Source: Fulvivirga marina (GTDB lineage Bacteria; Bacteroidota; Bacteroidia; Cytophagales; Cyclobacteriaceae). From it: a stretch of DNA of 64,000 nt. Made by a program: the position numbers and the translations under genes. Shown piece by piece: positions 32,815 through 45,718 of the stretch. Numbering within the stretch: the first letter of the stretch is position 1; each line of letters opens with the position of its first letter. Below the pieces are notes generated by a model. The model did not search any database. It was not told where the DNA came from and saw nothing but the letters and a program-made list of their open reading frames with translations. The stretch lies in NCBI RefSeq assembly GCF_016775155.1, contig NZ_JAEUGD010000042.1, positions 1 to 64,000 of the forward strand, in the 5' to 3' direction.

Positions 32815-34083
32815 TTAAAATATTACTTTTTTTAAGATGTCATAAAAGTTAAAAACATCTTCAAATGTGTTATACAAGGGGACAGGTGCTACACGAATAA
32901 CATTAGGCTCCCTCCAGTCAGCTACTACACCTGATTGGGTGAGATGTTCAAAAATGGCTTTTCCGTTATGGGTTACAAGCAATGACAATTGACATCCTCT
33001 GGCATTGGGTTCTGTGGGGGTTATCATTTGCAGAAAACCCTCATCTTGTAATTCTTTAAGTAGTGATTCGAGATAGCCTGTCAGTTTAAGACTTTTTTCA
33101 CGAAGTGCCTCCATGCCCGCTTCATTGTATATCTCAAGGGCGGCTAAGTGGGCAGCGCTGCTAAGTACATTAACATTACTCAACTGCCAGCCATCTGCTC
33201 CTTCCATAGGTTTAAAGCCTTTTTCCATTTTAAACCTTTCCTCTTCATTGTGACCCCACCAGCCTGCGAATCGAGGTATATCCGGATTGTTGCCATGCTT
33301 CTCATGTACAAAAATACCACTCACTCCTCCAGGGCCAGAGTTAAGATACTTGTAGCTACACCATGCAGCGAAGTCCACCTCGTGTTTGTGAAGTTCGAGA
33401 GGAACATTGCCGGCCGCATGAGCAAGGTCAAAACCCACAAAAGCACCAGCTTGGTGACCTGCCTCAGTAATTTTTTGGATATCGAAAAACTGACCTGAAT
33501 AATACTGTACACCGCTAAGCATTACAAGTGCCAGGCTGTCTTTATGTTCTTCAATTTTGCTTATTATATCTTCTGTCCTTAGCGTGTGTTCACCTTTACG
33601 AGGTGAAATCTCTACCAGTGCCTCATTGTAGGGCAGTTTGTGAAACTTTATTTGACTTTCCACAGCATACTGGTCTGAGGGGAAAGCTCCGGATTCGATA
33701 AGTATTTTGTGCCTGGTTTTGGTTGGGCGATAAAATGAAACCATCATCAGGTGTAAGTTTGAGGTGAGGCTATTCATAGAGACCACTTCTGAAGGGAGAG
33801 CACCTACTATTTTTGCCAACGCCTCTTTACTGAATTTATGATAATGAAACCAAGGGCGCTTTTGAGAGTGAAAATGCCCTTCCACACCTAGGGTAGCCCA
33901 ATCATCAAGCTCTTCATTTATATAAGTTTTTGTGCTTTTGGGTTGAAGCCCTAAAGAGTTGCCCGTGAAATAAATGACGTCTTTCCCTTTGAGCTTTGGG
34001 ATATGAAATCTGTTTCTAAATGCTTTGAGAGGATCTTCGTTGTCCAATTGCTGTGCGTAAGCCAGCGTATTTTTATTGCTCAT
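32815..34083 (-). CDS. kynU: Kynureninase
   Basis: KynU is a PLP enzyme that splits 3-hydroxykynurenine (or kynurenine) to 3-hydroxyanthranilate (or anthranilate) and alanine. The PLP-lysine segment CSYKYLNSGPGG is near residue 240 and GFDLAHAAGNVPL near 215. The start giving MSNKNTLAYAQQLD fits homologous N-termini. An upstream ATG at 34119 would add 12 residues and overlap the methyltransferase gene by 8 bases. It lies between the methyltransferase and kmo. Confidence 0.95.
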   Translation of the reverse strand: MSNKNTLAYAQQLDNEDPLKAFRNRFHIPKLKGKDVIYFTGNSLGLQPKSTKTYINEELDDWATLGVEGHFHSQKRPWFHYHKFSKEALAKIVGALPSEVVSMNSLTSNLHLMMVSFYRPTKTRHKILIESGAFPSDQYAVESQIKFHKLPYNEALVEISPRKGEHTLRTEDIISKIEEHKDSLALVMLSGVQYYSGQFFDIQKITEAGHQAGAFVGFDLAHAAGNVPLELHKHEVDFAAWCSYKYLNSGPGGVSGIFVHEKHGNNPDIPRFAGWWGHNEEERFKMEKGFKPMEGADGWQLSNVNVLSSAAHLAALEIYNEAGMEALREKSLKLTGYLESLLKELQDEGFLQMITPTEPNARGCQLSLLVTHNGKAIFEHLTQSGVVADWREPNVIRVAPVPLYNTFEDVFNFYDILKKVIF

Positions 34084-34111
34084 TTGAAAATTGAAATCGT
34101 TTGCGTCAATA

Positions 34112-34591
34112 TTAGGCAAAAATTTTCATCTGTTCACTGCGTATAATACCTTCGTGTTTTAAGAGCCATTCCTTTTTCTCTAAACCTCCGGCAAAACCTA
34201 CTAAACTCCCGTCTTTTCCTATAACCCTGTGGCAAGGTACTATTATGGGGATCTTATTTTTGCCATTGGCAGTACCTGCAGCCCTAATACATTTGAGATC
34301 GCCAAGGCGGATGGCCAGTTCGCTGTAGGAAATGGTTTTTCCAAAAGGAATCTTTAGTAATTCTGACCATACTCGGTTCTGAAAATCAGTCCCAGTTAGT
34401 TTTATTGGAATAGAAAATTGTTTGAGATTTCCCTGAAAATACGCATCCATTTCGTTTATGCACTGATTGATTAATGCATTTTCAGAGTAATCATTCCGAT
34501 TGTCTTCTGTAAAGCAGGCCTCTGTAATGGCTGCATTATCTACCGATATCTTGATCCCACCTATAGGAGATTGGTACACGGCAGTTTCCAT
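34112..34591 (-). CDS. ogt: Methylated-DNA--cysteine S-methyltransferase
   Basis: Ogt repairs O6-alkylguanine by transferring the alkyl group irreversibly to its own cysteine. The active-site motif VPCHRVIG is near residue 128, with the DNA-binding arginine helix around LKCIRAAGTANGKN. I start at the ATG giving METAVYQSPIGG (159 residues). This ATG shares one base with the haaO stop (TAATG). It is embedded in the kynurenine unit although it is a DNA-repair gene, so it is presumably cotranscribed and translationally coupled to haaO. Confidence 0.92.
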   Translation of the reverse strand: METAVYQSPIGGIKISVDNAAITEACFTEDNRNDYSENALINQCINEMDAYFQGNLKQFSIPIKLTGTDFQNRVWSELLKIPFGKTISYSELAIRLGDLKCIRAAGTANGKNKIPIIVPCHRVIGKDGSLVGFAGGLEKKEWLLKHEGIIRSEQMKIFA

Positions 34592-35118
34592 TAAACAAAG
34601 CGTTCGTCTACCTCCATAACATGGCCGCAACTATCGCAGGTCCGCATTTCTTTAGAGCTATAAAACTCTTTAAAGCGCGAAAGGAAATCCTTCTCAATGT
34701 TTTTTAACGGAAAATATGTTTCGTGTAGTTTGTGATTGCAGTTGTCACAAAACCACATGAGTCCATCAGTGTGTTGCTCCTCTCGAACTCTTTCAATGAC
34801 TAACCCAACTGAGTTGGCAGGTCTGATGGGGGAATGAGGTACCTTAGCTGGGTGTAAATAGATATCTCCAGCCTTTATAGGCACTTCAACAGCTTTTCCA
34901 TTTTCCTGTATTTTGACAATGATGTCACCCTCCAGTTGATAAAAAAACTCCTCGGTTTCATTATAGTGATAGTCTTTTCTGGCATTTGGCCCGCCGACTA
35001 TCATTACTATAAAATCGTCAGCTTCAACATAAAGGTTCTTATTCCCAATAGGTGGTTTTAGGATATCACGGTTATCCTCAATCCACTTTTGAAGGTTAAA
35101 AGGTCTTTTTATAGCCAT
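34591..35118 (-). CDS. haaO: 3-hydroxyanthranilate 3,4-dioxygenase
   Basis: This cupin dioxygenase opens the ring of 3-hydroxyanthranilate to 2-amino-3-carboxymuconate semialdehyde, the branch point to quinolinate/NAD or to degradation. The cupin metal-binding histidines and glutamate are visible in YHYNETEEFFYQLEG near 50. The bacterial C-terminal rubredoxin-like iron site CDNCNHKLHE...CDSCGHVM is near 125-165. Length is 175 residues. It is the first gene of the minus-strand kynurenine unit. Confidence 0.95.
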   Translation of the reverse strand: MAIKRPFNLQKWIEDNRDILKPPIGNKNLYVEADDFIVMIVGGPNARKDYHYNETEEFFYQLEGDIIVKIQENGKAVEVPIKAGDIYLHPAKVPHSPIRPANSVGLVIERVREEQHTDGLMWFCDNCNHKLHETYFPLKNIEKDFLSRFKEFYSSKEMRTCDSCGHVMEVDERFV

Positions 35119-35283
35119 AAAGTAATTTTTAAAATTATGCGTATCTGGTTATTAAGCCTAATTGATTAAATGTCATTAACTATTTGAGTGTTCATCTCAG
35201 CCAAATAACTGACATTATGGACATTTCTCTTTAAATTTAGCGAAAATTAAAACGATACAGATACAGGATTCTAACAAAATCAA

Positions 35284-36072
35284 ATGGATTTAAAGCTAAA
35301 GGATAAAAGAGCAATAGTATGTGGCAGCACTCAGGGTATAGGCAAGGCAATCGCATTTGAGCTAGCCTTATTGGGAGCAAGTGTTACCTTGGTTGCCAGA
35401 AGTGAAGAGAAACTACAAAAAGTACTGGATCAGCTTCCATTGACTCAAGGGCAGGAGCATCACTACATATGTGCGGATTTTGATGATCCAGATAGACTTA
35501 AAACGGCCATTGATCAATATCTGATCAAGGGGAATAATGTTCAGATACTGGTAAATAATACAGGAGGCCCTGCAGGTGGCAAGGCAATCGATGCAAAACT
35601 TGAGGAGTTTGAAGCTGCGTTCAGGAGGCATTTGATCTGTAATCAAATTCTTACTCAGGCAGTAACGCCATTTATGAAACAAGTTGGTTATGGTAGGGTA
35701 ATCAATATTATTTCTACTTCAGTAAAATCACCACTGCCTGGGCTTGGGGTATCTAATACAATTCGAGGCGCTGTAGCAAACTGGGCCAAAACACTGGCTA
35801 CGGAGCTTGCGCCATATGGAATTACAGTTAATAATGTTTTGCCGGGTGCTACCAGCACAGTAAGGTTGGAGAGTATTATTCGAAGCAAAGCGAAAAAAAC
35901 AGATGTTACTGAAGAGGATGTGATGAAAGCCATGAAGAAGGAGATTCCGGCAGGTAGGTTTGCAACTCCTGAGGAGATAGCAGCTGCAGCCGCTTTTCTG
36001 GCTACACCGGCAGCTGCATATATTAATGGGATAAACCTACCGGTTGATGGTGGCAGATTGAGCTGTCTGTAA
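35284..36072 (+). CDS. SDR-family oxidoreductase
   Basis: This is a classical short-chain dehydrogenase/reductase of 262 residues. The cofactor motif CGSTQGIGKAIA is at residues about 13-24, NNTGG near 95 replaces the usual NNAG, and IISTSVKSPLPGLGVSN near 140 lies where the Ser-Tyr-Lys centre is expected. The usual catalytic Tyr-x-x-x-Lys is not obvious: the segment reads VSNTIRGAVANW. It is therefore a divergent SDR of the kind seen beside kynurenine-pathway genes, possibly not a standard dehydrogenase. It is divergent from haaO and 43 bases upstream of the dehydrogenase gene. Confidence 0.85.
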   Translation: MDLKLKDKRAIVCGSTQGIGKAIAFELALLGASVTLVARSEEKLQKVLDQLPLTQGQEHHYICADFDDPDRLKTAIDQYLIKGNNVQILVNNTGGPAGGKAIDAKLEEFEAAFRRHLICNQILTQAVTPFMKQVGYGRVINIISTSVKSPLPGLGVSNTIRGAVANWAKTLATELAPYGITVNNVLPGATSTVRLESIIRSKAKKTDVTEEDVMKAMKKEIPAGRFATPEEIAAAAAFLATPAAAYINGINLPVDGGRLSCL

Positions 36073-36115
36073 TTATCACTGCGGAAGAAAGTTTCTTATT
36101 TACAGAATTACAACA

Positions 36116-37558
36116 ATGAAAACAATACAGAACTATATCAACGGGGAGTTAGTGGAGCCTAAGTCAGGGCAGTATTTGGATAATTACAACCCTGCTGAGG
36201 GAAAAGTATATAGTTTAATACCCGATTCTGACAAATCAGATGTTGAGGAGGCTGTTAAAGCTGCTAAAGCGGCGTTTCCCGAATGGTCTTCCATGCCCAT
36301 ACAGAAGCGCTCTGATATCCTCAACAAAATTGCTGATCTCATTGATAAGAATCATGACCGTCTGGCTGAAGCCGAATCGGTCGATAATGGAAAACCATTA
36401 AAACTTGCTCAGCGAGTAGATATACCTCGAGCATCCAGCAATATGCGTTTTTATGCAACGGCTATTTTGCACTTTGCTTCCGAGTCGCACCACATGGATG
36501 GAGAGGCTGTTAACTATACCACCAGAACCCCGGTGGGTGTGGCAGGCTGTATTTCTCCATGGAATTTGCCTTTATATCTGTTCACCTGGAAAATCGCTCC
36601 GGCACTAGCTGCTGGTAATACTGTTGTGGCTAAGCCTTCCGAGGTAACACCTATGACGGCTTATCTATTTTCAGAACTGTGTATTGAAGCAGGACTGCCC
36701 AAAGGCGTGTTAAATATTGTTCATGGCCTGGGTGCCAAGGCTGGTCAGGCCATTATTGAGCACCCGGACGTACCCATTATATCCTTTACCGGAGGTACGA
36801 CTACTGGTAAAAACATTGCAGCTACGGCAGCTCCAATGTTTAAGAAACTTTCTCTAGAACTGGGAGGCAAGAACCCTAATATCATTTTTGAGGATTGTGA
36901 CTTTGAACAGGCGCTCAATACTTCGGTACACTCTTCTTTTGCTAATCAGGGGCAGATATGTCTTTGTGGATCCCGTATTTTTGTTCAGGAAACTATTTAT
37001 GAGAAGTTTTTAAATGCCTTCGTAGAAAAAGTAAAAGCATTGACAATAGGAGATCCTTTGGAGGACGGCACAAAAGTGGGAGCGGTAGTTTCAGAATCTC
37101 ACATGGAAAAGGTAATGTCATATATTAAGCTGGCTCAGGAAGAAGGAGGGAAAGTTGTAGTTGGAGGCAATAGAAAAAAGCTTGAAGGCCGATGTTCCGA
37201 GGGGTATTTTTTGGAGCCGACGATCATTACCGGTTTGAGTCATCAATGCCGGACAAATCAGGAGGAGATTTTTGGGCCCGTGGTAACCATCATGCCTTTT
37301 AAAGAGGAGAGTGAGGTACTTGAGTATGCCAATAGTACGGCTTATGGACTGGCAGCGACCATTTGGACAGAGAATCTTAAACGAGCACACCGTGTGGCAC
37401 ATCAACTTAAGAGTGGCATCATATGGGTAAATTGCTGGTTGGTTAGAGACCTGCGAACACCTTTTGGAGGAATGAAACAATCAGGTGTAGGGCGTGAAGG
37501 AGGGTGGGAGGCTCTCAGGTTTTTCACCGAACCGAAAAATATTTGCATCAAATTATAA
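36116..37558 (+). CDS. Aldehyde dehydrogenase, aminomuconate-semialdehyde type
   Basis: This NAD-dependent aldehyde dehydrogenase of 480 residues has the catalytic glutamate motif LELGGKNPN near 248 and Cys in NQGQICLCGSRI near 282. The N-terminal WNLPLYLFTWK and the C-terminal INCWLVRDLRTPFGGMKQSG are characteristic of 2-aminomuconate/2-hydroxymuconate semialdehyde dehydrogenases (ALDH8 type). That fits oxidation of the semialdehyde formed downstream of HaaO after decarboxylation. It is cotranscribed with the SDR and divergent from haaO-kmo. Confidence 0.88.
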   Translation: MKTIQNYINGELVEPKSGQYLDNYNPAEGKVYSLIPDSDKSDVEEAVKAAKAAFPEWSSMPIQKRSDILNKIADLIDKNHDRLAEAESVDNGKPLKLAQRVDIPRASSNMRFYATAILHFASESHHMDGEAVNYTTRTPVGVAGCISPWNLPLYLFTWKIAPALAAGNTVVAKPSEVTPMTAYLFSELCIEAGLPKGVLNIVHGLGAKAGQAIIEHPDVPIISFTGGTTTGKNIAATAAPMFKKLSLELGGKNPNIIFEDCDFEQALNTSVHSSFANQGQICLCGSRIFVQETIYEKFLNAFVEKVKALTIGDPLEDGTKVGAVVSESHMEKVMSYIKLAQEEGGKVVVGGNRKKLEGRCSEGYFLEPTIITGLSHQCRTNQEEIFGPVVTIMPFKEESEVLEYANSTAYGLAATIWTENLKRAHRVAHQLKSGIIWVNCWLVRDLRTPFGGMKQSGVGREGGWEALRFFTEPKNICIKL

Positions 37559-37576: not shown

Positions 37577-38326
37577 CTAGTTACCGAGTTCCCTATATAA
37601 TACTTCCGCCTGAGATTTAAACATGTGATCTGGGTGTTGGGTAATTAGAGTAAGTTGCTCCTGAGCTTTTTTACTCTCACCTAATTTGAGATATGTTAAA
37701 GCCAGGTACCACTCTGAAACTTCCCTATATAATCCAGTTGCATTTTTAGATGTTTCTTTAAGCCATTTCTCTGCTTGTTCAGCTTCACTAACTGCTAGAT
37801 AGGAAATCCCGAGGTATGTTTTTATGGCATTGTCCTGAAGGTTTTCATCGATATGGCTTTCAAAGTAAGCTATGGCTGCCCTATAGTTTTGCTGATTGTA
37901 TGCGCTAAGGCCCTTTTCTTGTAAGCTTTGCGCATCAGACCTTTGAGAAATTATATCCTCATAAGGTTGGAAGTAGGTAGCAAATAGTTCTTCGTTATTT
38001 GGTTGTGCTACATTTTGTAAAACCAGATAGCCTATTGGGATCATTAGAACTAAAATAACTGCTGCGACAGAGAGTATACGTTTTATAGGAATAACCTTAG
38101 CAGATTTCCTTCCTGAGATTTCTTCCTCCCAGGTTCCTAGTTTTTTCATAAACTCCTGCTCACCAAATGATCTGACTTCTGACATTACATGCAGATAATC
38201 TTCTACCTGTTTATTAAACTCAGCATCATCGGCTCTTCTTTTGTCGAACTCTTCTATCTCATGAGTGCTGAGTTTTCCCTTATGGTAGGCATCTATTAAT
38301 TCTATATCTTTTTCTTCCTGCTCCAT
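37577..38326 (-). CDS. Membrane anti-sigma-like protein with periplasmic TPRs
   Basis: This 249-residue protein has a cytoplasmic N-terminus (about 1-82), a single TM segment (about 84-105, RILSVAAVILVLMIPIGYLV) and a C-terminal periplasmic region of about 140 residues. The N-terminus has the DAYHKGKLSTHEIEEFDKR motif seen at the start of Bacteroidota anti-sigma factors. The periplasmic region carries TPR-like helices (YNQQNYRAAIAYFESH, YLGISYLAVSEAEQAEKWL, WYLALTYLKLGESKKAQEQL). It lies one base after the sigma factor gene and is probably its inhibitor. The TPRs may sense a periplasmic partner. No zinc-binding ZAS motif is apparent. Confidence 0.8.
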   Translation of the reverse strand: MEQEEKDIELIDAYHKGKLSTHEIEEFDKRRADDAEFNKQVEDYLHVMSEVRSFGEQEFMKKLGTWEEEISGRKSAKVIPIKRILSVAAVILVLMIPIGYLVLQNVAQPNNEELFATYFQPYEDIISQRSDAQSLQEKGLSAYNQQNYRAAIAYFESHIDENLQDNAIKTYLGISYLAVSEAEQAEKWLKETSKNATGLYREVSEWYLALTYLKLGESKKAQEQLTLITQHPDHMFKSQAEVLYRELGN

Positions 38327-38327
38327 A

Positions 38328-38906
38328 TTAATGACCTGTTTTGGCCTCTATTAGCTCTTCACGAATTTTTTTCAGACAAAGGCATTTTTTCTTTTTTACT
38401 ACCCCTTCATTCTTGTATCCAAGGTTGGAAGCAATGCTCTCCATTGAAAAATTTTTAAAGTAATACATGAGTAGAATAGACTTGCATGGCTCTCCCAGCT
38501 TCTCAAGGATTTTCTTTACTATCCCCCGCTGATGAGCCTCTTCCTCAACCCTTAAAAGGTCACTACCTGCAGTCTCTATTTCCGGGATTTCATCCAATTG
38601 CACCTTGTGTTTACGCTCTCGAAACAGTTCTCTGACCAGGTTTTTACCTATGCCAAACAGGTAGGTGCTTATGTTGCTTTTTAATGCAGTTATTTTTTCA
38701 TCTTTCACATTAAAGTAGAAAATGGTAAAACTCTTTTGGTACAAATCTAAAGCTTCGTCTTTTGTGATGCGGTGGTGGGCCATGAACCATTTTAGGAAAC
38801 CAGGCCTGTTGATCTCATAAAGCTGGCGAAGAAAATGATCGTCTCCCTGCTTTACCAGCAGAATAGCATCATCTGTTGCTGTGCCATTAGTTTGTACTTC
38901 TTCCAT
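38328..38906 (-). CDS. ECF-type RNA polymerase sigma factor
   Basis: This is an extracytoplasmic-function sigma-70 family protein of 192 residues. Region 2 includes FLKWFMAHHRITKDEALDLYQKSFTIFYFNV, and region 4 has GEPCKSILLMYYFKNFSMESIASNLGYKNEGVVKKKKCLCLKKIRE. The region 4 helix-turn-helix ends in an unusually basic KKKKCLCLKK. It precedes the anti-sigma-like gene by one base and is divergent from the C1 peptidase/CHAT cluster, which it may control. Confidence 0.9.
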   Translation of the reverse strand: MEEVQTNGTATDDAILLVKQGDDHFLRQLYEINRPGFLKWFMAHHRITKDEALDLYQKSFTIFYFNVKDEKITALKSNISTYLFGIGKNLVRELFRERKHKVQLDEIPEIETAGSDLLRVEEEAHQRGIVKKILEKLGEPCKSILLMYYFKNFSMESIASNLGYKNEGVVKKKKCLCLKKIREELIEAKTGH

Positions 38907-39183
38907 CCGTTAGTGCGTACCGGTATAAAAAGGTTACCATACTTCAAGAGGCCAAGATAGACAAACTTTACTTCCTTGAAAAGAGGATAAATCCCCAAAG
39001 GCAAGATACCCATCTTGTAAATACTTTCCTATGCCCAATCTATAGGGCATATTGCCGAACTTTTCATCACTCACAAGGATGCATCTGGGAGATTAATAGC
39101 TTGTTAAGATAGTTTTTCAAAAATTTAGCAAAAGTGGTAACCGATTTTGATTTGAACTCACCAATGACTAAAAATCAAATATT
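38907..39183. promoter_or_regulatory. Divergent sigma factor / C1 peptidase regulatory region
   Basis: This 277-base intergenic region separates the minus-strand sigma/anti-sigma genes from the plus-strand exported-protease cluster. No convincing TAnnTTTG box is present on either strand, which would fit use of the adjacent ECF sigma rather than the primary sigma. No specific site can be named. Confidence 0.35.
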
Positions 39184-40875
39184 ATGAAAAAAATAAATGA
39201 ATTTCTTTATTTAATTATAGTTGTTGCTTTTCTTCTGTTTTCGTGTGATGAAGAATTTGAAACTCCGCCGGATGTCACTACATCAGAAAACTTTGTTGAT
39301 TTAAGGCCTCAACAGTCATCCCTTAAAGATCAGGGAAATAGAACTACATGCATTGTTTTTGCAGGTGTTGCGGCAACGGAAGCTGCATACAAGCGTATTG
39401 GCTATGGCGAAGTGGACCTGTCAGAAGAGTTCATAAATTTTACCAGGAAGAGTTTTTATCTACATCCTATTTGGAGCGACATTGTTGGTCGTGGAGAAGA
39501 TGCTATAGAAACCCAACTTGGTCATACTGGTGGTGGAGGAGGCACTGGAGTAGTGGCCGAACTGACTAAAGGCTTCAAGATCCCTATTGAATCAACAATG
39601 CCCTACCAGTCTTCAAATACTTATTATCAGAATAATTATCAAACCCTTGGAGATATAACAGCCAAATCTGAGGCTGGGGAGGTTCTAAAGCAGCGAGACT
39701 ATAGCAATTTCAATCTTGACCCAGAAATACTTACAGATACTCAGTTGAGAGCTGAAAAATATTACAGTGTAGCACAGTACCGGGACATTGATGATCCAAA
39801 AGATCCTGCAAAAATAGAAGCCGTTCTGAAGCGAGGTAATGAGGTAGTTTGGGACTTTGCAGGAGCGGTGCCATGGGAAACCGGAGGTATAGATGAAGAT
39901 GGAATATGGCAGGCATGCAGTTCCTGCACGCTGATGGGACACTCTATGCTTATTGTGGGTTTTGATAAACGTGATGCTGATCCGGATAACCATTATTTTA
40001 TAGTAAAGAATTCCTGGGGTGCCGGATGGACAGCAACCGGAGGTGAGGGATATACCTATATATCATATGATTATTTGAGAAACTATGGTGTGGCAGCTAG
40101 TTACATCGTATTGGCGAACCCACCCTCCAAATGGCCGGAAATAGCGTTTATTGGTCGTTGGAAACTTGATTATGATGGATTTAAAGGGGAGCTTGATATT
40201 TATCATCTTCCAGGTATGGCGCAGTACACGTTTGAGTATAACGCAGGGGCAGGGGTGATACCAGAGGTATATGATGATTATAGAATTGGAACTTTCTATG
40301 ATAGTGAAGGAAAGGCATACAAGGTTAACGGAGCAGTCTCGGGCAATCGTATTGAGTTCTATTTTGATCTGGCTACACCACTTCAAAAGTGGGATGAAAA
40401 GCTGGGGCGTAAATTTGTCTATTACCTTGACCAAAACAATTTTATGGCAGGTCAGCATACTGATGGTGATGGCAAAACTTATGGTGGGTATGCCCGAAAG
40501 ACTGGTTTTATAAGTGGAGGGAATAAAACCCCCAGACCTTTCGAAGTTCAGTCTTACATAGATAGTCAATGGGATTTTTATTATGAGAAGGCAACGGGGG
40601 TAATTGAGTTTACAGAAGATGTTTCTAACCAAGAAGCAGATTTCTACTTGCTCAATGGAACTTATACTTCGTCTGATGGAAGTATTGTTTCCGCTGCTCA
40701 AATCAAAATACCTAAGGCTGAGACTAATCGTGCTTACATACAGGTTGCCAATATTGGAAATGGAGAAGGAGCGGAAAGTTTCATTGGTAAACACTTAAGC
40801 TGGGAAGCCGGATTGATAACTGGAAATACACCAGAGACAGGCAACGCACTGCCCTTCTATATGATCAGAAAGTAA
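39184..40875 (+). CDS. Papain-like C1 peptidase lipoprotein
   Basis: This exported cysteine protease has 563 residues. The lipobox is VVAFLLFSCDEE (Cys near 21). The C1 fold occupies about residues 35-310. The oxyanion Gln and catalytic Cys are in LKDQGNRTTCIVFAG near 51-60, His in LMGHSMLIVGFD near 257 and Asn in IVKNSWGAGW near 277, so all key residues are present. The canonical GSCW around the Cys is replaced by RTTC. The C-terminal 250 residues are beta-rich and unrecognised, perhaps two related modules. Lipid anchoring suggests a surface or periplasmic role. It is the first gene of the four-gene exported cluster. Confidence 0.85.
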   Translation: MKKINEFLYLIIVVAFLLFSCDEEFETPPDVTTSENFVDLRPQQSSLKDQGNRTTCIVFAGVAATEAAYKRIGYGEVDLSEEFINFTRKSFYLHPIWSDIVGRGEDAIETQLGHTGGGGGTGVVAELTKGFKIPIESTMPYQSSNTYYQNNYQTLGDITAKSEAGEVLKQRDYSNFNLDPEILTDTQLRAEKYYSVAQYRDIDDPKDPAKIEAVLKRGNEVVWDFAGAVPWETGGIDEDGIWQACSSCTLMGHSMLIVGFDKRDADPDNHYFIVKNSWGAGWTATGGEGYTYISYDYLRNYGVAASYIVLANPPSKWPEIAFIGRWKLDYDGFKGELDIYHLPGMAQYTFEYNAGAGVIPEVYDDYRIGTFYDSEGKAYKVNGAVSGNRIEFYFDLATPLQKWDEKLGRKFVYYLDQNNFMAGQHTDGDGKTYGGYARKTGFISGGNKTPRPFEVQSYIDSQWDFYYEKATGVIEFTEDVSNQEADFYLLNGTYTSSDGSIVSAAQIKIPKAETNRAYIQVANIGNGEGAESFIGKHLSWEAGLITGNTPETGNALPFYMIRK

Positions 40876-40987
40876 TGTTGAATGCTCACTTTCAGTCTGT
40901 TATTGTTATATGCAGGCTTAAATAATTGCATTCAATAAACCGTTAAGCTATTTTAAGATAATTAAACCAACTAAAACAACTAAACCA

Positions 40988-41533
40988 ATGCGTATTTATT
41001 CTTTGTTATTCCTGCTACTTATGATTTTTGCAGGATGCGAACCGGAAGCACAACAAATAGAAAACCAGCTTTTTGTGCATAATTGTACTGTAGACGATAA
41101 ATGTAATACCGATGATGATCCTTATTGCGATTGTGGAGGCTCTCCCGAATGTGACAGATATTGTCAGCGCCTGGATCCTGCCCTCTTTTCTATAGTACGA
41201 GGAGGTAGGATATGCGGTAAAATATTGGGGTGTATTCCTCCAATAGATGCCCGGCAGTTAAGAATAATATTCTTCACTACCAATCCGGCTGAGTCAATTA
41301 GCTATATAAGAACTGTTGCTGCAAAAAATAATGAGATTTTTGCCAAAGGAGAGTTAGAATCATTTGATAAACAAAGAAACGAAGCTACTTTTAGATATAA
41401 CATAGCGGCAGAGGAGCTAATGGAACAGGAGCTTGTAGTTAGCATAACGGCCTTTACAAAAGAAAAAGAAGGTGAGCTAAGTATGACTATGGAGTCAGAA
41501 CCATTCCCAAAAGGTCACTTTGCATTTAAATGA
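40988..41533 (+). CDS. Cys-rich lipoprotein, unknown function
   Basis: This 181-residue protein has a lipoprotein signal (LLLMIFAGCEPE, Cys near 18). A Cys-rich segment follows (about residues 30-80) with ten further cysteines, including the pattern CDCGGSPECDRYCQRLDPAL. The C-terminal 100 residues look like a beta-sandwich. No family is recognised. The Cys segment shares the ECxRY...LDPxxL pattern with the lipoprotein encoded at 44582-45643. It lies 112 bases after the C1 peptidase gene and just before the CHAT gene. Confidence 0.65.
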   Translation: MRIYSLLFLLLMIFAGCEPEAQQIENQLFVHNCTVDDKCNTDDDPYCDCGGSPECDRYCQRLDPALFSIVRGGRICGKILGCIPPIDARQLRIIFFTTNPAESISYIRTVAAKNNEIFAKGELESFDKQRNEATFRYNIAAEELMEQELVVSITAFTKEKEGELSMTMESEPFPKGHFAFK

Positions 41534-41540
41534 TTAGATC

Positions 41541-44480
41541 TTGATTTTAGAGAAAGTAATTTTATTAGTTAAAAAGTCCGTCATGTGCGGACTTTTTATG
41601 TTATCAAGCGTGCTTACAGTTTATGGACAGGAAGCCCGATTAGATTTCATGGGGCAGGTTGATTCTACCATGGATAGGTATTATTTTGAAAATGCTGATA
41701 GTGCATTGTATTATCTGAATAAGCTTTATCGTAAAGCAGTAGATAATAGGTGGAGTAGTGGAGTTCTCTATGTACTATTGAATAAGGCTTATGTAGCGGA
41801 GCATCATTTTATGATAGATTCGCTGGATATATTTTTGGATCAGGGGGACAGCATATGTAACCAGTATCGCAATGACACGGAAACTATAGACCCGGATAAT
41901 AATTTAATAGCTGAAGTATCCTACATGAGGGGGATGTATTATTATTACCAGGGAGATTTTCTTAATGCTTTACTTAGTTTTAAGAAGACCATTTTTGATA
42001 AGGATATTCTCCAAATCTCGGATTCGCTACAAACGTTTAACGGTCTTGTCAATATTAGCCAGTTAGCTATATTCAATTCAGACTATGGAAGGGCGATGCA
42101 GTTTGCCAATATGGCAAGTAAAACACTTCCTATGCAGTACCCCTCTTATACTTCGGTAAGGGACTATGATTATCAACGGGCCTTTATTGATGCAGTGAAA
42201 TCAAGAATACAGTTTTTACAAAACCAGCCAGGTAAGAATATCAATATCTACAGGGGGATAAAAAGTAGCTTAAAACAATCCATTGAGAGGATAAAACATA
42301 AGGAAAATGAAGCCGGTACTCATAATTTGTTTCTTAAGCTCTATACACAATTGGCAGACGTATATGTTGCGCTTGAAGATTACGATAGTGCTTTAGTGCA
42401 TATAAATAAAGGTATGCTGTTAAGCAAAGGGGCGGATAAAGAGCAACAAATAAAGTTTCTTTATGAAGCTGCCAATGTTCATTTAAAAAAAGGTGATGAT
42501 AAGACGGCAACTAAACTGGTAAGGGAAGGGCAGGATATTGCTTTAAGGGATTTTGATGAGCGAAATAGGTTTATTGCACGAGCCTATTATGAAATGGGAA
42601 ATATACATGCTTCAAGAAGTGAATGGACCAGGTCACTATCAGCTTATCAACAGTCTCTGCTTCAATTGGTAGATTCTTTTTCAAATCATGATGATCTCTT
42701 TGCGTTACCACTGTTGCAGGGTAATATGCTTGAAAGCGAAGTGCTGAAGGTTCTTTTGCTTAAAGCCCAAACGTTTTATCGATGGTATAATGATAAACCT
42801 GATAATAAAAAAGCCTTGTTTGCAGCAGTTGAGACATATGAAAAAGCTGTCGAACTGATTGATAAGATAAGGATGAGCTTTCAGGATGCCGACTCCAAGC
42901 AATTCCTTTCTTCAGTTACTTTATCATCATATGAAGAGGGTATACAAGCAGCAACACTGGCTTATCAGGTTACATCAGATACAAAATACTTTGAAAAGGC
43001 ATTCTATTTTGCAGAGAAAAGTAAGGCCAATCAGTTGGTTCAAGTGGTGAAAGATATATCATCAAAATATTTTGCGGGTATTCCCAAAGACATAATTGAA
43101 CATGAGAACCAACTTAAGGGGCGGGTATACTACTGGAAGCACACTTTGCAGGATTCAGATGATGCCGATTTTAAAGTAAAGGCTCAGAAAAATCTGCTTG
43201 AAAGTAAAGAAAGATATGAAAAGTTTATAAAAGGTCTGGAGAAGGAGTATCCTGAATATTATCAGGTGAAGTATACCTCAAAAACCATTGGTATTCATGA
43301 TATAAGAAGTGAGCTGGCTAAGGGTGAGGTGTTGATAGAATACTTTTATGGAGATCAACACCTATATGTTTTTGCGATTTCAGCTAACGATACTTTCCTT
43401 GAGTTAGTGCCTGTTGATTACAGTATGCACAAGAAGCTTTATTCTTTTCTTGACCTGTTAAAAAAGCCAGGTGTAGAAAAGTACGATTTGGAACAATATG
43501 AAATTAAAGCGAAAGAGCTTTATGCTATTCTGCTGAAGCCTGTAGAGAAGGCCATGCCTAAAGAAAATGGACATTTACTTATTGTAGCTGATGGCCCCTT
43601 AGGATATTTACCCTTTGAAGCGTTGATAGCATCTGAAATTTCTAACGAGAGTTTAGATTTTGTAATTAACAAGTACAGTGTTTCATATGATTATTCAGCG
43701 ACGCTCAGACATGAAAAGAAACGTATTCAAAGAGATGGAGAAAACAGGCGCTACGTTGGGTTCAGCCCGAGTTATAATTCAAAAGAGTCTTTTTTAAGTG
43801 ACTTAAAGTTTAACCATATGGAAGTAAAGCAAGCTCAAAGTTACTTAGGAGGGGAGGTTTTTGATGGAGAAAATGCAACTGAGTATAATTTTTACAATAG
43901 CTCATCTGAAGCATCTGTTATACACCTTTCTTTACATGCCAAAGTTGATGACGATCACCCATCAGCGTCAGCACTTTATTTTTATAATGCCTCTGTTTCG
44001 GGGCAGACAGGGGCAGATGAGGATAATATTCTATACCTGTATGAGCTTTATAGTATATCATTAAAGGCCAGACTAGCTGTTTTAAGCGCGTGCGAAACAG
44101 GCACAGGCTTATATGCAAGAGGTGAGGGTATTATGAGTTTAGGGCGGGCATTTCAGTATGCCGGATGCCCAAGCGTTGCTATGAGTTTATGGCAGGTTAA
44201 TGATAAATCTACCGCATCCATTATGGGCGAGTTTTTCCAAAACCTGGAAAGAGGAATAAGCAAAAGTGAGGCGTTAAGAAAGGCCAAGCTATCATTTATC
44301 AATGATCCTAAAAATAAATACTTCACCCACCCATACTATTGGTCGGGATTTGTTTTGATGGGCGATGATCAGCCCATTTCTTCTCCATCACGGCTAATGG
44401 AAGTTTTGCTTGTATTTGTGGTGCTGATAGCTACAACCTTGATAGTTTACATCAAAAAATACAGAAAAGGATCTGCCTGA
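41541..44480 (+). CDS. TPR-CHAT (caspase-like) protein, exported, membrane-anchored
   Basis: This 979-residue protein combines about 500 residues of TPR-like helices with a C-terminal CHAT protease domain (about 630-930). The CHAT catalytic His is in SVIHLSLHAKVDD and the Cys in LAVLSACETGTGL, both intact. The N-terminus KVILLVKKSVMCGLFMLSSVLTVYGQEA is a Sec signal peptide, and the extreme C-terminus has a TM helix (LLVFVVLIATTLIVYI) followed by KKYRKGS. The catalytic part is therefore predicted periplasmic. I use the TTG at 41541 because it supplies the basic n-region; an ATG at 41583 would leave none. It is 7 bases after the Cys-rich lipoprotein gene. Confidence 0.85.
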   Translation: MILEKVILLVKKSVMCGLFMLSSVLTVYGQEARLDFMGQVDSTMDRYYFENADSALYYLNKLYRKAVDNRWSSGVLYVLLNKAYVAEHHFMIDSLDIFLDQGDSICNQYRNDTETIDPDNNLIAEVSYMRGMYYYYQGDFLNALLSFKKTIFDKDILQISDSLQTFNGLVNISQLAIFNSDYGRAMQFANMASKTLPMQYPSYTSVRDYDYQRAFIDAVKSRIQFLQNQPGKNINIYRGIKSSLKQSIERIKHKENEAGTHNLFLKLYTQLADVYVALEDYDSALVHINKGMLLSKGADKEQQIKFLYEAANVHLKKGDDKTATKLVREGQDIALRDFDERNRFIARAYYEMGNIHASRSEWTRSLSAYQQSLLQLVDSFSNHDDLFALPLLQGNMLESEVLKVLLLKAQTFYRWYNDKPDNKKALFAAVETYEKAVELIDKIRMSFQDADSKQFLSSVTLSSYEEGIQAATLAYQVTSDTKYFEKAFYFAEKSKANQLVQVVKDISSKYFAGIPKDIIEHENQLKGRVYYWKHTLQDSDDADFKVKAQKNLLESKERYEKFIKGLEKEYPEYYQVKYTSKTIGIHDIRSELAKGEVLIEYFYGDQHLYVFAISANDTFLELVPVDYSMHKKLYSFLDLLKKPGVEKYDLEQYEIKAKELYAILLKPVEKAMPKENGHLLIVADGPLGYLPFEALIASEISNESLDFVINKYSVSYDYSATLRHEKKRIQRDGENRRYVGFSPSYNSKESFLSDLKFNHMEVKQAQSYLGGEVFDGENATEYNFYNSSSEASVIHLSLHAKVDDDHPSASALYFYNASVSGQTGADEDNILYLYELYSISLKARLAVLSACETGTGLYARGEGIMSLGRAFQYAGCPSVAMSLWQVNDKSTASIMGEFFQNLERGISKSEALRKAKLSFINDPKNKYFTHPYYWSGFVLMGDDQPISSPSRLMEVLLVFVVLIATTLIVYIKKYRKGSA

Positions 44481-44581
44481 TAATCTATGTCTTAGGTGTT
44501 TTGATTGAAAAGATACTGTTAAGTTGGTAACCTATGGTTTTGCGGCTTCACTAACCACCAAATCATTAAATCAACTTAATT

Positions 44582-45643
44582 ATGAAAAAACCTAAAATTA
44601 AATCAACATGTAACATTTCCATTTTAGTAATGGGGGTATTATTTTTCTCCATGATATCGTGCCGAGAGGATGTATTGAATGATCAGACTCAGAATAGTAA
44701 TCAATTTGCTCAAAACCTGTCTGGAGAAAAGCAGAATCAAAGTGCTCGTTTGGGCAAGGGTATATGTTTCCCCGTGGTTGATCCTGGTAGAATTGTAAGG
44801 AGAACTTTAGTCTTACGCTGCGATGACACATGGGGTGAATGCAACCGCTATTATACCGAGTGCTTACCTTGGCTTGATCCTTGTGCTTTGATTCCTTGCG
44901 GAATCGAATGGAGAGACCCCTGGATTATATATGATAAGTTCAGAGAAACGCCTGAGGTTTTCGATTCATTTCGGGATGCCGGTCAAATTAAAATTGACCC
45001 CTCCACTACCAGAGCTTATTTCCCTGTAAATGGAAGTGTGCTGGGTATGCAGTTTTACCAGGAATGGGAGCATTCACTATCCAAAGACAAACTGCATTTA
45101 CGCACTGCCCTTTTACTTGATGAAGAAACGGCCAATGATTATGGCTTAGAGGGTGATGTTTTACCAGCGGGTATTTATCCGGTTATTTACAACGAGAAGA
45201 ATAATACATTTAATGCTTTTGCTGCAGTTAGTAAATTCCCTGTTGAATATGACAGGCCAATTAATCAGATCATTCCAGCATACTTTGATGGTACTTTAAA
45301 TTCGCTTCTCAAAGACTTTTATATTAAAGAACAACCCGAATCCGTATTAATTGAAACGGACCTGGAGAAGTATACGGTTGAACCAAACATTTCCAAAAAC
45401 ATTGCCGGAGTATATGCAGCCTCATCAAACCTTTATGATCTGAGCCTGATATTCAAAGGTGACCCAAACCCACAGTCGAGTAAATACGGCACGCCAACGA
45501 AAATTTTGGTTGAAGGAGAAATTTGGTTGAATGAAGAGATAGCTAAACTTTTAAATATTGAGCCATTCTTAATTAGACCTGAAAATGTTCATCAGGCGTA
45601 TGATGAGAAGGAGGATGTTTTAAGAGTGACTATTTTAAGATAA
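44582..45643 (+). CDS. Second Cys-rich lipoprotein, unknown function
   Basis: This 353-residue protein has a lipoprotein signal ending in VLFFSMISCRED (Cys near 27). Residues about 60-115 are Cys- and Trp-rich (RCDDTWGECNRYYTECLPWLDPCAL). The C-terminal 240 residues are mixed alpha/beta without a motif I know. The Cys-rich segment resembles that of the lipoprotein at 40988. It lies 101 bases after the CHAT gene, in the same orientation, and closes the cluster before a bidirectional terminator. Confidence 0.65.
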   Translation: MKKPKIKSTCNISILVMGVLFFSMISCREDVLNDQTQNSNQFAQNLSGEKQNQSARLGKGICFPVVDPGRIVRRTLVLRCDDTWGECNRYYTECLPWLDPCALIPCGIEWRDPWIIYDKFRETPEVFDSFRDAGQIKIDPSTTRAYFPVNGSVLGMQFYQEWEHSLSKDKLHLRTALLLDEETANDYGLEGDVLPAGIYPVIYNEKNNTFNAFAAVSKFPVEYDRPINQIIPAYFDGTLNSLLKDFYIKEQPESVLIETDLEKYTVEPNISKNIAGVYAASSNLYDLSLIFKGDPNPQSSKYGTPTKILVEGEIWLNEEIAKLLNIEPFLIRPENVHQAYDEKEDVLRVTILR

Positions 45644-45652
45644 GGTAAATAA

Positions 45653-45702
45653 TAAAGATGCCACTCTTTAACCGGAAAAACCGGATTGGAATGGCATCTT
45701 TA
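45653..45702. terminator. Bidirectional terminator between the CHAT cluster and ndk
   Basis: Perfect 11-bp outer arms (TAAAGATGCCA and its complement) enclose an inner CCGG-A5-CCGG stem. It lies 10 bases after the lipoprotein stop and 17 bases from the convergent ndk stop, so it can end both units. Confidence 0.75.
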
Positions 45703-45718
45703 TTATTCTTAGTAATGC

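Follow-up and report, generated by a model that had tools for sequence, protein, structure and literature searches.

A 64,000-nt stretch of the Fulvivirga marina genome (assembly GCF_016775155.1, contig NZ_JAEUGD010000042.1, positions 1–64,000; hereafter the window) was analyzed around a block of six open reading frames (ORFs). The minus strand encodes an extracytoplasmic function (ECF)-type sigma factor and a tetratricopeptide repeat (TPR) protein resembling an anti-sigma factor. Divergently from these, the plus strand encodes a papain-like C1 protease, a small lipoprotein (lipo1), a caspase-like TPR-CHAT protease, and a second lipoprotein (lipo2). A first-pass annotation of the DNA had described this divergent six-gene layout, and all six ORFs were present at 37577–45643. 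As judged by sequence comparison, the conserved core is the ECF sigma factor, the TPR anti-sigma-like protein, and the TPR-CHAT protease, and C1 lies outside this core.

Only the six module genes are located between the ALDH and NDK genes, which are 8160 nt apart in the window. Eleven module-less relatives were compared: in 8 of them the same two genes were 27–164 nt apart, in two others the gap held a single gene, aldo-keto reductase-like by eye, and the eleventh (G027) had a different context. By this comparison, the six genes are a present-or-absent insert between ALDH and NDK.

The sigma factor matched TIGR02937, an ECF sigma profile, with 55.1 bits against a cut-off of 42.9; its Pfam region-4 match was under the cut-off of that model. 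It also has, in sequence, an own motif before its own gene and before its targets, as ECF factors do. The anti-sigma-like gene follows directly, and its product has a single hydrophobic transmembrane (TM) stretch between N- and C-terminal domains. A TM stretch was predicted in 44 of 47 anti-sigma proteins. TPR matches in the window protein were each under the Pfam cut-off, and a TPR model matched six of six homologues (E ≤ 0.01). The layout suggests that the TPR protein is likely a membrane anti-sigma factor. The anti-sigma-like family was found in 188 of 390 genomes of the same taxonomic family (E ≤ 1e-10, at most 6 candidates scored per genome) and in 30 of 296 genomes of the phylum, own genome included (E ≤ 1e-15).

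Linkage was counted in anti-sigma loci picked by hand from top- and mid-ranked matches, one per genome, with up to 20 kb of DNA fetched for each. There were 40 loci from the family, two of them (L080 and L081) orthologues of the window module, and 20 from other families of the phylum. TPR-CHAT was present in 31 of the 40 family loci (25 of the 31 within 1 kb) and in 15 of the 20 others (8 within 1 kb, all 15 within 5 kb). Taking both groups together, CHAT was no more than 5 kb from the anti-sigma gene in 45 of the 46 CHAT-positive loci and no more than 1 kb away in 33. No CHAT was found in 11 control loci, 193 kb in total, all from the ALDH–NDK site. The sigma model recognised a sigma neighbour at 17 of the 20 loci from other families. 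The own genome has three further anti-sigma loci, each near a sigma-sized gene and a CHAT gene; at one of them, L047, the sigma-sized neighbour was left unscored by this model. CHAT and anti-sigma genes were convergent in 19, divergent in 11 (6 of these orthologues of the window module), and on the same strand in 7 of 37 loci with CHAT within 5 kb. CHAT is linked in every orientation; therefore, the association is more than co-transcription. The sequence distances of anti-sigma and CHAT proteins were correlated (r = 0.80, n = 33; none of 2000 permutations reached this r), which fits joint inheritance of the pair. At L198 (G492), a distant locus without CHAT, a caspase gene (PF00656) and a trypsin-like gene adjoin the anti-sigma homologue, and a sigma-like gene unscored by the sigma model is also present.

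Conserved linkage of all six genes had been put forward as a check on the first-pass annotation. It held for the sigma/anti-sigma/CHAT core, which recurs. A strict unit of six genes was dismissed, since C1 is accessory and lipo2 turned up solely in G000, G002, G005, and G014 (the G001 contig stops short). The suggestion of the same annotation that the TPRs sense a ligand and relay it through the anti-sigma factor fits the recurring linkage.

The CHAT protein matched PF12770 with an E value of 5.1e-57. Cys851 and His799, the latter of which we take to be the catalytic histidine, were invariant in 33 of 33 aligned CHAT sequences, the pair expected of a CHAT protease. In the window protein, a hydrophobic stretch lies at the N-terminus and a TM stretch near the C-terminus; the listed ORF begins with TTG. 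A C-terminal TM stretch was found in 30 of 32 full-length CHAT proteins. Searched by sequence against the PDB, the whole protein gave no match at 0.01. The best 60 of 98 PDB matches of a whole-CHAT profile were TPR-type chains, and a profile of the CHAT domain weakly matched chains named "CHAT domain protein", e.g., 7x8a_D and 8d9h_E (E about 0.02), presumably Craspase entries. The own genome (6.78 Mb) has eight CHAT matches; to our knowledge, such proteins are mostly without a known role. The CHAT gene was split into two ORFs in L020 (G170) and L081 (G002), and relatives keep intact copies.

A terminator-like hairpin lies in the first codons of the CHAT ORF. Its strict form was found in 4 of 8 orthologous loci versus 20 of 400 random windows. 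The hairpin was seen in all five Fulvivirga loci looked at (the window, L080, L081, L015, and L014), with near-identical letters in three; L015 and L014 differ, and in L014 it is imperfect. The hairpin may hold CHAT expression below that of lipo1.

The pattern GGTAACC-N16-CACYAAY had exactly three matches in the genome, all in the block, before sigma, C1, and lipo2. The pattern was derived from these three sites and hence was checked on other genomes. In a census of 19 genomes, GGTAACC-N16-CACYAA matched 32 times in the 8 genomes with a sigma/anti-sigma orthologue versus 4 times in the 11 without, and a reversed control pattern matched 6 and 7 times, respectively. All four matches in sigma-less genomes were within ORFs, and 17 of the 32 in sigma-bearing genomes were inside the module. 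Twelve of the 15 out-of-module sites were looked at: nine were 51–169 nt upstream of a gene, two were intragenic, and one had no convincing gene. The nine downstream genes encoded seven exported proteins or lipoproteins (export judged by eye; two orthologous pairs), one lanthipeptide precursor, and one small unknown protein. The lanthipeptide precursor, at L133 (G002:C10:66276), is of the pinensin family; its gene begins 61 nt downstream of the first base of a GGTAACC-N16-CACTAA site. Several other targets resemble ordinary surface proteins, e.g., OmpA-family and G8-domain proteins. The OmpA-family gene behind the motif at L122 (G002) has a charged N-terminal region similar to that of an OmpA-family gene of Sinomicrobium (L034), which is next after a C1 homologue.

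A promoter matrix trained on 15 sites from eight loci other than the window ranked the three block sites top in the 64 kb, with scores of 31.1, 26.8, and 24.4; the next site scored 11.3. Of the orthologous loci, 7 of 8 have the exact motif before sigma (degenerate in L019), 6 of 6 holding sigma and C1 have it at the same place before C1, and 4 of 4 with lipo2 have it before lipo2, one of them with one mismatch. Sigma-70 promoter-like matches between 37400 and 45900 were at chance level (25 found versus 25.5 expected), which agrees with the first-pass statement that no primary-sigma box is visible. Comparison of the divergent upstream regions, the check proposed there, turned up the shared motif. 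Thus sigma, C1, and lipo2 appear to be under one shared private ECF-type promoter, and ECF control of the block, including the plus-strand genes, is strongly supported by the private motif, the census of 32 versus 4, and the matrix ranking. The matrix scan found no such site upstream of lipo1 or CHAT, so both probably depend on read-through from the C1 promoter. Only 3 nt separate the CACTAA of the sigma promoter from the annotated sigma ATG in the window, and in L018 and L020 the two overlap; a transcript from this promoter would therefore be leaderless, or the true start lies elsewhere.

The GGTAACC promoter was rejected as a rule for all anti-sigma loci. The full GGTAACC-N16-CACYAA motif was found in 6 of 44 sigma upstream regions, window excluded (L015, L018, L020, L080, L081, and L086), and most modules must therefore rely on different promoters. 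In the wider family, genes upstream of sigma were exported in 26 of 40 cases by a loose test versus 98 of 212 in the background, an enrichment too weak to count. The motif also stands before sigma at L086 (G099), a locus that is not one of the eight orthologous ones; there it precedes, with a 17-nt spacer, a divergent gene for a 775-aa lipoprotein as well.

The C1 protein matched PF00112 with an E value of 5.5e-11. The residues of papain family C1, Gln50, Cys56, His253, and Asn276, were invariant in seven aligned sequences, and the structure model has a papain-like fold. Both proteases of the block thus carry the catalytic residues that the first-pass annotation had assigned to them. The roughly 250-residue beta-rich C-terminal extension of C1 had no Pfam match. 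Foldseek with this half returned scattered weak lipocalin-like or beta-barrel rows, from which nothing was drawn. The comparison behind the papain-like fold barely covers the extension. Homologues were found in 8 of the 390 family genomes, own included (E ≤ 1e-20). Sigma and anti-sigma genes were near C1 in five of seven relatives, in a neighbour listing that left out ORFs open at contig ends (later locus listings include them). In G027 and G004, no sigma, anti-sigma, or CHAT was detected beside C1. Likewise, ten C1-homologue loci outside the family, four of them weak matches, had no sigma, anti-sigma, or CHAT match in the fetched DNA. The orthologous module also occupies this site in G014 and G002, but there C1 is missing, as it thus is from two of eight orthologous loci; in G002, two other exported proteins replace it, the nearer one behind the same promoter. 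C1 therefore looks like an exchangeable payload in these genomes. In L020 (G170), C1 is short.

Lipoboxes were found in C1, lipo1, and lipo2. Together with the hydrophobic N-terminus of CHAT, they point to the export of all plus-strand products, as previously predicted. After the lipobox cysteine, C1 reads C-DEEF, which is acid-rich and resembles SDDFE but lacks its polar or basic lead residue. An SDDFE-type surface export signal is known for Bacteroidetes lipoproteins, according to the available part of the source (PMC5080379). The C1 protease is likely at the cell surface. Lipo1 has nine cysteines and lipo2 eight; both counts include the lipobox cysteine, and that of lipo2 also includes one in its signal. 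In eight of eight orthologous loci, the gene before CHAT encodes a small lipoprotein (in L014, the frame after lipo1 runs open to the contig end and was left unscored), and lipo1 is poorly conserved (18–79% identity). Lipo2 had no family match in Pfam or NCBIfam and no PDB sequence match at E ≤ 1, and its fold prediction was poor (mean predicted local distance difference test score of 33.4).

The features of the block are listed in the table. The closing terminator of the first-pass annotation was recovered as a strong hairpin, although a simple terminator scan missed it. Rfam at gathering thresholds gave no match in the window. The left flank (32815–37558) resembles what we take to be a tryptophan/kynurenine catabolism cluster.

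Table. Predicted features of the six-gene block and its borders in the window.
Feature	Position	Strand	Evidence
Anti-sigma-like protein: short N-terminal domain, TM 84–102, then TPRs	37577..38326	-	TPR matches, TM stretch, homologue family
ECF-type sigma factor	38328..38906	-	TIGR02937 above cut-off; 1 nt upstream of anti-sigma gene
Promoter GGTAACC-N16-CACTAAC of sigma/anti-sigma operon	38909..38938	-	Exact motif, matrix
Promoter GGTAACC-N16-CACCAAT of C1 (perhaps lipo1-CHAT by read-through)	39136..39165	+	Exact motif, matrix
Papain-like C1 protease lipoprotein with beta-rich C-terminal half; probable payload	39184..40875	+	PF00112, catalytic residues, model
Lipo1, small Cys-rich lipoprotein	40988..41533	+	Lipobox; 7 nt upstream of CHAT ORF
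TPR-CHAT caspase-like protease: N-terminal hydrophobic stretch, C-terminal TM 953–971	41541..44480	+	PF12770
Intrinsic-terminator-like hairpin in first codons of CHAT ORF (possible attenuator)	41570..41598	+	Kept in some orthologous loci
Promoter GGTAACC-N16-CACTAAC of lipo2	44526..44555	+	Exact motif, matrix
Lipo2, Cys-rich lipoprotein	44582..45643	+	Lipobox; no family match
Terminator hairpin between lipo2 and convergent NDK gene	45648..45707	.	-29.3 kcal/mol, z -7.8

The block can be read as a self-contained envelope signalling module with a CHAT-gated anti-sigma factor and an exchangeable surface payload, a reading to which we give a probability of roughly 45%. A membrane anti-sigma factor, an ECF sigma factor, and a protease predicted to sit on the outer face of the inner membrane together have the arrangement of regulated proteolysis. 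For CHAT gating of the anti-sigma factor, Csx29, Csx30, and CASP-sigma are a direct precedent: in the available part of the report (PMC10028731), the TPR-CHAT protease Csx29 cleaves Csx30, an inhibitor of CASP-sigma, and CASP-sigma is relieved. In the mechanism proposed here, the membrane anti-sigma factor would retain the ECF sigma factor in the cytosol. An envelope trigger would be felt by the TPRs of a periplasmic, inner-membrane-anchored TPR-CHAT, which would make the first cut in the periplasmic part of the anti-sigma factor. Other proteases would complete its degradation and free the sigma factor. From GGTAACC-N16-CACYAA promoters, sigma would then transcribe three units: its own operon, lipo2, and C1-lipo1-CHAT, the last of which closes a positive loop. 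In relatives, it would also transcribe genes for further surface proteins. The circuit would be self-amplifying because sigma probably drives the operon that holds CHAT. The output here would be a surface-anchored papain-like protease and Cys-rich lipoproteins that remodel or attack cell-surface material. The membrane orientation, the signal, and the substrate of C1 are as supposed in this scheme.

Several points weigh against CHAT gating. Cleavage or binding of the anti-sigma factor by CHAT is a prediction. Pfam and NCBIfam gave no recognised anti-sigma domain in the TPR protein, which only TPR-type models matched, and the N-terminal export stretch passed a simple test in just 16 of 32 full-length CHAT proteins. 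The linkage controls all represent one genomic site, and a correlation of distances would look the same under shared ancestry as under contact. CHAT follows C1 and lipo1 downstream of a sigma promoter in the window, so it may be an output, and 14 of the 60 anti-sigma loci (9 of 40 in the family, 5 of 20 in the phylum) had no CHAT in the DNA fetched; at least three of these (L085, L091, and L092) were cut by contig ends. The last two points favour an arrangement in which sensing by the sigma/anti-sigma pair relies solely on binding through the pair's own TPRs, with CHAT, C1, and the lipoproteins all being its products. However, CHAT is linked in all orientations, mostly convergent with no shared promoter at hand, and orthologous loci change cargo while CHAT stays. 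CHAT as an effector is plausible, though somewhat less likely than gating.

The present-or-absent insert, the payload exchange, and the pinensin-family precursor behind the same motif in G002 would also suit a conflict or defence module, in which sigma answers an attack (from a phage, predator, or competitor) with surface proteases and antimicrobial peptides. Neighbourhoods of caspase, ECF sigma, and TPR genes are reported in conflict systems in the available part of one source (PMC8195603). Nevertheless, none of the six proteins matched a PADLOC model, and several targets look like ordinary surface proteins, so a defence role is unlikely. The first-pass annotation had also suggested that one protease processes the other. 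C1 and CHAT are near neighbours here, probably under one promoter, but the otherwise orthologous loci of G014 and G002 lack C1 (CHAT is split in G002), and C1 occurs without detected sigma, anti-sigma, or CHAT in G027, G004, and the ten loci outside the family. Two of the seven C1-bearing relatives thus have no adjacent sigma/anti-sigma pair. Obligate C1-CHAT processing was set aside with C1 missing in two of eight orthologous loci, and a cascade in which one protease activates the other is very improbable.

CHAT-gated signalling, a route that would be little studied so far, may extend beyond this locus. Tentatively, a non-CRISPR, envelope, protease-gated sigma signalling system would be widespread in Bacteroidota, with an inner-membrane TPR-CHAT as the first-cut protease for a TPR anti-sigma factor and with interchangeable surface payloads. 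If true, the Csx29/Csx30/CASP-sigma triad of CRISPR loci would gain a plausible wider family, as the captured relative of a signalling unit that is older. If the anti-sigma factor is the substrate, a large group of caspase-like bacterial proteases gains a testable function, the opening of a membrane gene switch. The GGTAACC promoter is a ready-made reporter. A literature search, with subscription papers mostly outside its coverage, found no description of a sigma/TPR anti-sigma/TPR-CHAT unit, and the Craspase paper alone mentioned both the CHAT domain and extracytoplasmic function.

Among known systems, cathepsin-type proteases of papain family C1 share the catalytic Gln, Cys, His, and Asn with the window C1, as well as the papain-like fold of its model. 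Unlike cathepsins, the window C1 is a lipoprotein with the beta-rich C-terminal extension. Regulated proteolysis of anti-sigma factors is well known from DegS-RseA-sigmaE and RsiW-type systems. These systems, as far as the available part of the source covers them, resemble the module in the membrane anti-sigma factor, the ECF sigma factor, the envelope signal, and the proposed periplasmic first cut (PMC10028731). The proposed first protease of the module is a TPR-bearing CHAT protein and not a PDZ serine protease as in DegS-RseA-sigmaE. Calp (CalpL-CalpT-CalpS) is a second precedent with a different protease; it is described in the available part of its source as a Lon/SAVED protease triggered by cyclic tetra-adenylate (cA4), and it is not an envelope system (PMC12751052). 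Neighbourhoods of caspase, ECF sigma, and DUF1822 TPR genes also bring a caspase-superfamily protease, an ECF sigma factor, and a TPR protein together. They belong to EACC2/TRADD-N-linked conflict systems and have another TPR family, and the available part of the source describes no membrane anti-sigma layout (PMC8195603).

The closest likeness is to Craspase/CASP. According to the available part of the report, both have a TPR-CHAT protease, a sigma inhibitor (likely so in the module), and an ECF sigma factor, and the CASP-sigma locus, like the module, has three matches to its own promoter (PMC10028731). TPR-CHAT and ECF sigma genes were found in one locus here as well. The module differs from Craspase in the predicted export and membrane anchoring of its CHAT protein, in its likely sigma inhibitor, a TPR protein of the membrane, and in its payload of lipoproteins. 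No CRISPR effector or Cas7-11 was found among the six insert genes, the only part of the genome that the search for Cas7-11 covered. The new part is the recurring sigma/TPR anti-sigma/TPR-CHAT unit rather than the papain protease, and this unit is an envelope counterpart of the CRISPR-locus triad.

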